Translations under genes and position numbers: made by a program
Notes under the pieces: model-generated
Told to the model about the DNA's origin: nothing
What the model saw: only the letters and a program-made list of their open reading frames with translations
The model's database searches: none
Part shown: positions 19,615-24,724 of the stretch, piece by piece
How positions within the stretch are numbered: position 1 is the first letter of the stretch
Layout of the letters: every line of letters begins with the position of its first letter
Source: Gammaproteobacteria bacterium
Lineage (GTDB): Bacteria; Pseudomonadota; Gammaproteobacteria; Steroidobacterales; Steroidobacteraceae
DNA: 64,000 bases
Reading direction: 5' to 3'
Assembly: GCA_016874295.1 (NCBI GenBank)
Contig: VGUH01000004.1
Coordinates: 1-64,000 of the forward strand

Positions 19615-19689
19615 GGGCCGTTAGCTCAGTGGCAGAGCATCTGGCTTTTAACCAGTTGGTCGATGGTTCGATCCCATCACGGCCCACCA
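19615..19689 (+). tRNA. tRNA-Lys (anticodon TTT)
   Basis: This is a 75-base cloverleaf. The acceptor GGGCCGT (19615-19621) pairs with ACGGCCC (19679-19685), the discriminator is A, and CCA is encoded. The anticodon loop is CTTTTAA; the T arm GATGG-TTCGATC-CCATC is intact. The outermost pair of the anticodon stem is a T-T mismatch. The gene stands alone between fnr and the broken porin gene. Confidence 0.95.
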
Positions 19690-19716
19690 GACCGTCTGCG
19701 TGCTACCACGCTATCC

Positions 19717-20937
19717 TCAGAATGAGGCGCCGAGCTGCAACCAGAGCTTCTGGGTGTCCGTGAAACCCTCGTCCGCGCTGTAGTCAGCGAACTTGAGCAT
19801 GACTTCGTAGCGCTTGGCGATGGTGCAGGCCACGAGCAGGTCGATTTCACTGCCGTAGTGCAGGCCCGTGGCCTCGGCCGCGAAATCGTGCCAGATGGCC
19901 TGGGCGCGCCAGATGGAGCGCTTGGCATTGAGGCCGACGTAAATGTCTTCGACGCCGGCGGACGGCGTGGTCAGGAACTTGTCCGCCCAGCCCTGCCACT
20001 TGTGGAGCGTCGCGAGCGGCGTCTGGAAGGCCGGGCTGCCCGCGGGATCCGGAGCCGCGCGCACGCCTGAAAGCTGCTCGTATCCGGCAACGAAATCGAA
20101 ATCCGCGAATTTGACCCGCCCCTCGAGGAGCGCGTACGAAGCGTCGACGTCGAGCGGATTGTCCCCCGCATCCCGCTGGCGCGCGTACTCGAGGGCCCAG
20201 GCCAGCGACAATCCCTCGCGGACGGCATGGCTGCCCTCGTAGCGCGCGCCCAGGCTTTATGACGAGAGCTGCGGCGCCTCGTCGAAATCCAGCAAATAAG
20301 CATAGGCCACGAGGAAGCCGGCCGCTCCCGGGCTCCACTTGACGTTCAGCAGGTGGCTCGCGCCCTCGAGCGTCTCGGGCGGCGTACCGGCATCCGGGCC
20401 GAACACACGGTTCACGCGGTCGACGAACGCGTAATTGACGGCAACCTTCGCGAGCGCCGTGGTTTCGATCCGGATCGCGTCCAGCGTCTGCTCATTCTGC
20501 CGCCAGCCGACGGAGCCGATGAACCGTTCATTGTCCAGGTTGAGCCGCTGACGCCCAAGCCGGAACCGCGTATCGGCGCGCGGCGCGTATTGCAGCCAGA
20601 GCTGATTGAGATCGGTGCCCTCGGGGTCGGCGACCACCGGGAACTCCGTATTGCCATTGCGCGTATCGTTGTAGTCTTGCGAGCCGACTGCCTCGATGTG
20701 GTCCACCTCGAGGAGGCCCGAGAATCCTAGGTGTTCGCGCAGCGCGAGGTTCGCGCGGATGCGGAGCGTGTTCGCATCGGCGTCACTCGCGAAGCCTTCC
20801 TGCTCGACGCCCTCGTAGCGATAGCGCAGGTCGAGGCCCGGGTCGAAGTAGGACGTGGCTGGTTTTGGTTCCTCGGCGAATGCCGCAACGTTCGCCAGAG
20901 CGACAACCAGTGGCAAAAGCCCCCGTGAACTCGCCAT
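19717..20937 (-). pseudogene. Alginate-export-like outer-membrane channel gene with an in-frame TAA
   Basis: The reading frame from the ATG at 20937 (MASSRGLLPLVVALANVAAFA, signal peptide, with AAAGGAGGT just upstream) continues in one frame to 19717 as a beta-barrel of about 406 codons. Typical strands are LDLRYRYEGVEQEGFA, RFRLGRQRLNLDNERFIGSV and LNVKWSPGAAGFLVAYAYL. A single TAA at 20259-20257 (codon 227) interrupts it; homology resumes at once (SLGARYEGSHAVREGLSLAW) in the same frame. One C-to-T change from CAA (Gln) would explain it. The truncated product could not form a barrel. A true nonsense mutation and a sequence error are both possible. Confidence 0.8.
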
Positions 20938-20990
20938 GGAGTGACCTCCTTTCGCATCGGCATTTTCGCGCGGCGGGCTCGCCACTTGCA

Positions 20991-21004
20991 TTGACCTGAG
21001 TCAA
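20991..21004. promoter_or_regulatory. FNR-like operator TTGAC-N4-GTCAA
   Basis: A perfect inverted repeat TTGAC-CTGA-GTCAA is centred at 20997.5, between ybdD and the porin gene. A -10-like GAAAAT on the minus strand (20967 to 20962) implies a start near 20955, so the box would be centred about 42 bases upstream, the class-II activator position. The consensus FNR site is TTGAT-N4-ATCAA, so each half differs at one base. Confidence 0.5.
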
Positions 21005-23362: not shown

Positions 23363-24724
23363 TCAGAGCTGCGGCCGCCGGTGCGGGTCCTGCAGGGCGC
23401 GCGCGAGGAAGCGGCGGATGGCCGGCACCGCATCTTCGGCCGGCATCAGTTTCTGCTGTTCCATGAGCCGAGCCATGTCGCGGATCGACCGCTCCCCGTC
23501 GATCATCGCGAGCAGGAACGCGTAGACGCGCGTGGACAACGCCTGCGCGCGGTATTCGGCCAGCGCCGGCACAGGCAGGTCCGTGCGGTGGATCCACTCG
23601 GGCAGCTCGCGCCCCGGCGCCGGGACCGGCACGTCGCGGACCTTGCGCGCCGCTATCGTCACGATGCTCTCGATCCGCGCATGGCGGCTGGCCGGCGAGC
23701 CGAGGTAGGGCTGGCGCGATTCCCCCACGTGCGTGGACTGGAATCCGTGCGCGGGCAGCGCCGCGAGCTGCTCCTCGAGGCTGGACGCCTCCTCCGGCGC
23801 GGCGTCCGTGAAGGCGAGCGAGCCGTGATGGATCCAGCCGCCCCCCGGCGCGAGCTGCGCGTTGATGCGCGCCAGCAGCCGCGAGACGGGCTCGCCCGCG
23901 ACGTCGATGTACCACGGGGTGAGCACCGCATCGAAGCGCCCCGGCAGGAATGGCGGGGCCGTGGCATCGGCGAGGAGCAGTTGCAATCCCGGCAGCGGGC
24001 GCGCCGGCGCCTGGTGCCGGCGCAGCACCGCGTGCTCCGCGATGCCCTTCGGCGCGATCGGGAATTCGTAGAGTTCGAGCGCCTCGCCGGCGAAGATGCG
24101 CGCGGCGGCCAGCAGGAACAGGGGATTGAAGTCGAGCGCGACGGTGAGCGCAGGACGCCAGGCCTGGTGCAGGTCGTAGGCGAGGCGGCACGCGCCTGCG
24201 CCGATCACCAGCAGGCGCTGCGGCGTCGCGCCGTCGGGCAGGCTCGCCCGGACTGCCGCCAGGCTCGCCGCGTTCTCCGCCTCCCCCCAGCACCAGTCGC
24301 GATGCAGATTCGGGTAGTACGTCGACAATCCCTGGTTCAGCGGCAGCTCGGTGCCGAGCGCGACGTGCACCGCGTGCGCCTCGCTCCTGCGTTCCGCCCC
24401 GAGCGGCTGCATCAGCGCGCGGATGCGCCCGGCCTGGTCGTCGAGCGCATTCGCGACGTGCTCGATGCGCCGGCACGCGAGGGAGGTCGGCGCGAGCCGC
24501 TCGAGCGCCGCACGCTGTCGCTGCGACTCCGCCGCATAATGCGTAAGCAGGTGATGCAGCCGGCCGCGCCACTCGGCGAGCGCGAGTCGCGGTTCCGGCG
24601 TGAGCTAGGGAATGCCGCCGATCTCCGGGTAGTCGACACGACAGGCGAGGCAGCCCGAGCCCGCGAGCGCCGTACCACAGGATGGGCAGGCGAGCAATTC
24701 CGCGAGCGCGGCGGGAAATCCCAT
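23363..24724 (-). pseudogene. SAM-dependent methyltransferase with N-terminal zinc ribbon, interrupted by TAG
   Basis: From the ATG at 24724 the frame encodes a four-cysteine zinc ribbon (LLACPSCGTALAGSGCLACR, Cys13/16/25/28) and the stretch DYPEIGGIP. It then hits TAG at 24607-24605 (codon 40), where relatives have Trp (GGIPWL-type). The same frame continues without another stop for 413 codons: a helical region, then a Rossmann methyltransferase core (LLVIGAGACRLAYDLHQ, VALDFNPLFLLAAARIF, LLLADATAPPF, FDAVLTPWYIDV). No good start codon follows the TAG before 24412. One G-to-A change from TGG explains the lesion. Substrate unknown. Confidence 0.8.

Follow-up and report, generated by a model that had tools for sequence, protein, structure and literature searches.

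Carnosine N-methyltransferase CARNMT1 (Pfam CARME, PF07942) and the imidazole N-methyltransferases OvoM and OvsM are the described proteins whose folds best match the product of the gene studied here. Two further systems resemble its ends: Trm112, which is a separate activator subunit, and PqqD, which has the RiPP recognition element fold. The gene itself is interrupted by a TAG codon. In-frame stops of bacteria are described by Belinky et al. (2021; PMC7918605) as widespread, usually short-lived and often situated in genes under purifying selection.

A ribbon-methyltransferase gene with an in-frame TAG

In the window (the whole 64,000-nt stretch that was analysed) the gene occupies 23363..24724 on the minus strand and has 453 codons, the in-frame TAG included, followed by a normal stop; it encodes a Trm112-like ribbon, a CARNMT-type methyltransferase and a PqqD-like tail. 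The minus-strand translation of 24724..23363 reads MGFPAALAELLACPSCGTALAGSGCLACRVDYPEIGGIP-TAG-LTPEPRLALAEWRGRL... and runs to the normal stop. Codons 1-39 (24608..24724, minus strand) form a Trm112/UPF0434-like zinc ribbon, identified by Trm112p matches and by PDB profile matches to 2kpi, 2pk7 and 2js4; these residues hold four cysteines and, at their end, GGIP, directly before the TAG. The TAG is codon 40 (24605..24607, minus strand), placed by translation and by homologue alignment. If it terminates translation, the ribbon is the sole product.

Past the TAG the frame stays open for 413 codons. Codons 41-104 (24413..24604, minus strand) are predicted to form two long helices, in which W52, R55 and R86 are conserved, as seen in the alignment and the predicted structure. 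This stretch was searched for in-frame ATG, GTG and TTG and holds none; the first is the ATG of codon 105 (window position 24412), preceded by CTG and ATC, rarer start-like codons that were also looked for. From this ATG runs an ORF of 349 codons (23363..24412, minus strand) that lacks the ribbon and the two helices. A helical PqqD-like stretch (approximately residues 385-445; 23390..23572, minus strand; limits set by eye) lies towards the C terminus and is assigned from PqqD matches in family members. The sequence-only reading had described this order of four-cysteine ribbon, GGIP, TAG and open methyltransferase frame, and translation bears it out, together with the 413 open codons and the lack of ATG, GTG or TTG before 24412. 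The open stretch that it had put at 62 codons is real; its length has to be corrected to the 64 codons that separate the TAG from the ATG at 24412.

As defined by Pfam, PDB-profile and predicted-structure matches, the intact protein is a Trm112-like ribbon, a helical linker, a CARNMT-type methyltransferase and, often, a PqqD-like tail. The window protein has sub-threshold Pfam matches alone (Methyltransf_25, CARME and others), with CARME missing its gathering score at 21.6 vs 27 bits, and no NCBIfam match at E<=1. Pfam searches at E<=1 with 40 family members (of 95 distinct sequences) matched Methyltransf_25 in 40, CARME in 39, PqqD in 25 and Trm112p in 17; the PqqD scores are weak, 7.8e-5 at best, and the window's own protein has no such match. 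When PDB sequences were searched with a profile, carnosine N-methyltransferase 5yf0 matched profile positions 133-336 (2.6e-9) and the ribbon protein 2kpi matched positions 2-45 (2.5e-5); UPF0434 structures ranked behind 2kpi. The predicted structure (mean pLDDT 86.5, pTM 0.83) has CARNMT1 entry 5yf2 as its top match (E 1.5e-12, TM-score 0.73 on target), and the CARNMT1 fold is thus found on a predicted model; further matches are OvoA, OvsM and OvoM entries and 9bxj/9bxn.

Unlike CARNMT1, OvoM and OvsM, the window protein has an N-terminal ribbon and a PqqD-like tail, and its identity to those structures is 12-19 %. The window family shares the CPxC...CxxC ribbon with Trm112p/UPF0434 and, unlike Trm112, carries it fused to the methyltransferase; the weakly scoring PqqD-like stretch is likewise fused, at the C-terminal end. 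In the order-level relatives L018-L021 (alignment A1) three of the four ribbon cysteines are gone. Working members of the family probably methylate an imidazole-type (histidine) nitrogen with AdoMet, a function suggested by fold and domains. By analogy, the ribbon may stabilise the enzyme the way Trm112 does, and the PqqD-like tail would perhaps hold a peptide substrate. Among the papers listed by a literature search, none mentions the ribbon-methyltransferase fusion in its title or abstract opening. This intact fusion family, often found near Tat-type and LamG-domain proteins, is not named in Pfam or NCBIfam and merits biochemical attention.

Homologues, partner gene and age of the stop

The gene is patchy: among 59 related genomes searched, this one included, it was matched in 23, and within the genus in 4 of 7. 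Both flanks of the TAG align to a single frame in 22 of the 58 other genomes, an open frame beyond chance, and an internal stop is absent from all 22 matches. Identities to the copies of three congeners are 67, 68 and 70 %; the copy of congener G001 (L004/L060) has a frameshift near residue 383. A profile built from 23 sequences and scanned against contigs confirmed 193 loci; the best 80 of these, together with the relatives' matches, make a set of 102 rows, 94 of them distinct.

At the TAG column the 94 distinct homologues have Trp in 76 cases, Cys in 8, Phe in 6, Ala in 3 and Val in 1, and each of the 84 Trp residues among all 102 rows is encoded by TGG. The alignment around GGIPW that the sequence-only reading had proposed as a check therefore finds TGG where it was expected in most relatives; the residue, which had been called a conserved Trp, belongs to a majority (76/94) and is not invariant. 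Between residues 12 and 440 no alignment of the 94 homologues contains a stop; a frameshift occurs in one, and the window's TAG is shared by 0/94. An in-frame stop in homologue L097 aligns at residue 449 and is the ordinary C-terminal stop. For all 94, the best alignment starts at residue 1-13 and extends across the ribbon to the methyltransferase; relatives encoding the two in separate genes, which would have spoken against a former single gene, did not appear in this set (collected via the methyltransferase). Since the relatives have a single frame without internal stops, and it aligns on either side of the TAG, the ribbon and the methyltransferase once belonged to a single gene, as had been claimed.

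Two properties expected of a nonsense pseudogene are accordingly present, a frame uninterrupted in relatives (94 homologues) and a stop not conserved in them (0/94). Relaxed selection or more lesions, expected as well, were not seen, which fits a recent event only. Of 87 columns that at least 95 % of the homologues conserve, the window copy deviates at 2 (median 1) and ranks 21 of 95. No significant acceleration emerged from relative-rate tests against L002, L003 and L004 with L005 or L006 as outgroup; with L003 as outgroup, which is an unsafe one, there were 56 changes in the window copy vs 30 in L002. Pairwise dN/dS against the congeners' copies L002-L004 is 0.17-0.46, with synonymous sites near saturation, and the codon-position G+C of codons 105-453 is gene-like (0.76/0.51/0.92). 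Because no decay is visible apart from the TAG, the stop is very recent, or the base is wrong in the assembly, or a little full-length protein is still made.

Upstream of the methyltransferase and in the same orientation, 53 of the best 80 of the 193 loci encode a ~530-aa protein whose start looks, by eye, twin-arginine-like; its median offset from the methyltransferase is -1800 bases. A LamG-domain protein follows still further upstream in 45 of these best 80 loci (for example, locus L065:1-3316). No Pfam entry matches the Tat-type partner protein at E<=0.1. This partner was found in 31 of the 59 relatives, in 18 of 23 genomes with the methyltransferase vs 13 of the 36 that lack it (p 0.003 by Fisher's test, uncorrected for relatedness); in the 18 genomes with both genes, they are adjacent in 9 and apart in 9, with G003 and G004 among the latter. 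The partner was searched for in this 98.8 %-complete genome and not found. Among the congeners, the two genes occur together, with the methyltransferase intact, in G003 and G004; G005 and G006 carry the partner alone, and G002 lacks both. The methyltransferase is broken, and a partner match missing, both here and in G001 (whose completeness of 75 % makes the missing partner weak evidence there). This distribution indicates that the methyltransferase gene is dispensable and, in this genome, an orphan.

Other interrupted genes and the reading of TAG

Several other genes of this genome carry premature stops; interruptions first spotted by a scan were re-tested by homology and by a coding model anchored on known frames. 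The alginate-export/porin-like gene at 19717..20991 (minus strand) has an in-frame TAA at 20259..20257 (codon 245), recognized from congener matches: all six congeners have matches without the stop, five of which span the TAA site while that of G004 ends short of it. Its above-cut-off Pfam match stops before the TAA, and a sub-threshold porin match spans it. Just beyond the window, a gene at C4:64221-64991 has two stops (TAG at C4:64380 and TGA at C4:64911); it is intact in G003, the only other of the 7 genomes with a match. A TetR regulator (L144:11392-12084) has TAG at C4:75668, where G003 and G006 have Trp.

The homology-free scan contributed an aminotransferase-class gene with TAG at C16:29935 (L155:9935), which we take to resemble 2-amino-3-ketobutyrate CoA ligase; an ABC ATPase, presumably CysA-like, with TAG at C1:136732 (L192:16732); another methyltransferase with TGA at C1:91421 (L190:11421); a DUF1302 gene with TAG at C6:23844 (L201:3844) and two weaker cases of mid-gene stops (C1:123341 and C1:122459). 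One interrupted gene is, judged from its sequence, presumably DUF3313-like. Nine read-through proteins were compared with Pfam. In four of them (TetR, aminotransferase, ABC and DUF1302) an above-cut-off domain extends across the stop, for the porin-like gene and the window's methyltransferase the spanning matches are all sub-threshold, and nothing in Pfam matches the two-stop gene or the two weaker cases. In the DUF1302-like and DUF3313-like genes the expected sequence seems, by eye, to be lost soon past the stop. Strong matches across the 7 genomes of the genus number 4 for the methyltransferase, 2 for the two-stop gene, 3 for TetR and 7 for the porin-like gene.

A GyrB-like gene (named by eye) of congener G003 (L173:6701-10897, C1) is enlarged by a 573-aa insert that matches Intein_splicing and LAGLIDADG in Pfam. 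The corresponding 573-aa gyrB deletion in the present genome is apparent only, as G003 has an intein there and this genome is without it.

Several results bear on whether TAG is read as sense. RF1 is intact (prfA, 509.9 bits, no internal stop), and a second release-factor match below the prfA cut-off is presumably RF2. The search for a suppressor tRNA(CUA), suggested by the sequence-only reading, came out negative: the genome's 39 tRNA matches all lie in loci that were run through ARAGORN, which called no CUA anticodon; the set is incomplete, as tRNA-Tyr and tRNA-Ile are missing from it. (At 19631-19720 of the window, minus strand, ARAGORN also calls a tRNA-Thr overlapping tRNA-Lys(ttt); this call is probably false.) Across 741 kb, a coding model anchored on known frames called 551 genes with an end, of which 385 finish in TGA, 133 in TAG and 33 in TAA; TAG is therefore an ordinary stop in this genome. 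Stops inside genes are not confined to TAG, given the TAA at 20259 and the TGA at C4:64911; with other genes interrupted by TAA, TGA and TAG alike, recoding is not supported. We thus reject reassignment of TAG.

The genome (2.37 Mb in 46 contigs, 98.8 % complete, 0.13 % contaminated) is smaller than the 4.0 Mb of the nearly complete congener G002. It has 16 candidates for mid-gene stops without a nearby ATG in 741 kb. The same count in congeners gave 2 in 531 kb for G003, 2 in 252 kb for G002 and 0 in 97 kb for G004, where stops may be missed in the latter two since their G+C (0.66 and 0.63) lies below the 0.69 of the training set. The difference between 16 in 741 kb and a total of 4 in 880 kb has a one-sided binomial p of 0.0019; p is 0.0055 when only G003, whose G+C is equal, serves for comparison, and with the window's contig left out (10 in 617 kb vs 4 in 880 kb) it is 0.022. 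By eye ~7 of the 16 candidates are mid-gene and the rest look like gene ends (e.g. C1:109464) or are ambiguous; none of the 4 control candidates is clearly mid-gene. Sensitivity of the scans is incomplete: the window's methyltransferase itself was missed by two scans and the porin-like gene by one, and the rule of no nearby ATG drops the ABC ATPase and DUF3313-like cases. In a strict screen of orthologues (positive coding score and identity >=0.5 on both sides of the stop) the 121 orthologues examined here contained 3 stops, located in 2 genes, and the 120 in G003 contained none; the small screens with G004, equally strict, yielded nothing either way (13 and 11 orthologues). Frameshifts flanked on each side by coding score number 3 here and 3 in G003.

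Explanations for the interrupted frame

With a probability of roughly three in four, we consider the locus to be a conserved, dispensable methyltransferase gene freshly broken by a nonsense codon, a case of ordinary gene loss; this is the most likely explanation since several other genes of the genome also carry premature stops. Translation would stop at codon 40 and leave a useless 39-residue ribbon, the enzyme may no longer have been needed after loss of the Tat-type partner, and the stop would then have drifted to fixation or high frequency. Several observations stand against parts of this account. Outside the TAG the protein is as constrained as its homologues, which fits a recent stop and fits readthrough or an error as well. 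The link with the partner is opposed by three genomes (G010, G037 and G054) that keep the methyltransferase without a partner match, and by the 9 of 18 pairs that are not adjacent. Also unfavourable are the near-equal numbers of frameshifts here and in G003, and the fact that by eye no more than ~7 of the 16 stop candidates are mid-gene. The findings of Belinky et al. cited here (PMC7918605) support gene loss and, weakly, readthrough.

A consensus error, or a variant of a minority strain in a population whose real gene is intact, is an unlikely origin of the stop. A single base separates the TAG from the relatives' codon, the gene has no other lesion, the assembly is in 46 contigs, and the best 80 of the 193 homologous loci all lie in records titled MAG. 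The assembly is, however, nearly complete with little contamination, and several stops in one 126-kb contig would need an error rate unusual for a short-read consensus. The loss of sequence past the stop in the DUF1302-like and DUF3313-like genes, seen by eye, points to real decay, and, of the four interrupted genes compared across the genus, all but the porin-like one have a patchy distribution. Leaky termination, by which a few ribosomes would pass the TAG and make full-length enzyme, is less probable still. In-frame stops have been proposed as a way to lower expression in bacteria (Belinky et al. 2021, PMC7918605), purifying selection is visible on both flanks of the TAG in the dN/dS values, and several of the other interruptions are likewise TAG. 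Such a use of the codon is opposed by its absence from all 94 homologues, by the intact RF1 and the lack of a CUA tRNA among the 39 matches, by the frequency of TAG as a gene end (133/551) and by the interruptions with TAA and TGA. We regard as very doubtful the broader proposal that leaky UAG termination lets a small-genome Steroidobacteraceae-like lineage tolerate premature stops, especially TAG; if it were true, pseudogene-like genes would stay partly functional at a low level under purifying selection. Equally hard to credit is a restart at ATG 24412 that would yield a shortened working enzyme without the ribbon. Its 349-codon ORF does contain the Rossmann part and the tail, and the loss of three cysteines in L018-L021 indicates that the zinc site can be dispensable; still, the ATG lies 64 codons past the stop, the product would be without both long predicted helices and their invariant W52, R55 and R86, and 0/94 distinct homologues align as such a short form.

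Taken as a recent gene loss, the locus is an example of an enzyme broken where its usual neighbour is also missing. As an interrupted gene it is ordinary, and it cautions against taking a frame conserved across a stop as sufficient proof of recoding. It resembles bacterial nonsense pseudogenes in having one stop in an open conserved frame, in the patchy occurrence of the gene, in a partner that was not found and in the presence of other broken genes in the genome; it is unlike typical nonsense pseudogenes in being very fresh, with no second lesion in the window gene.
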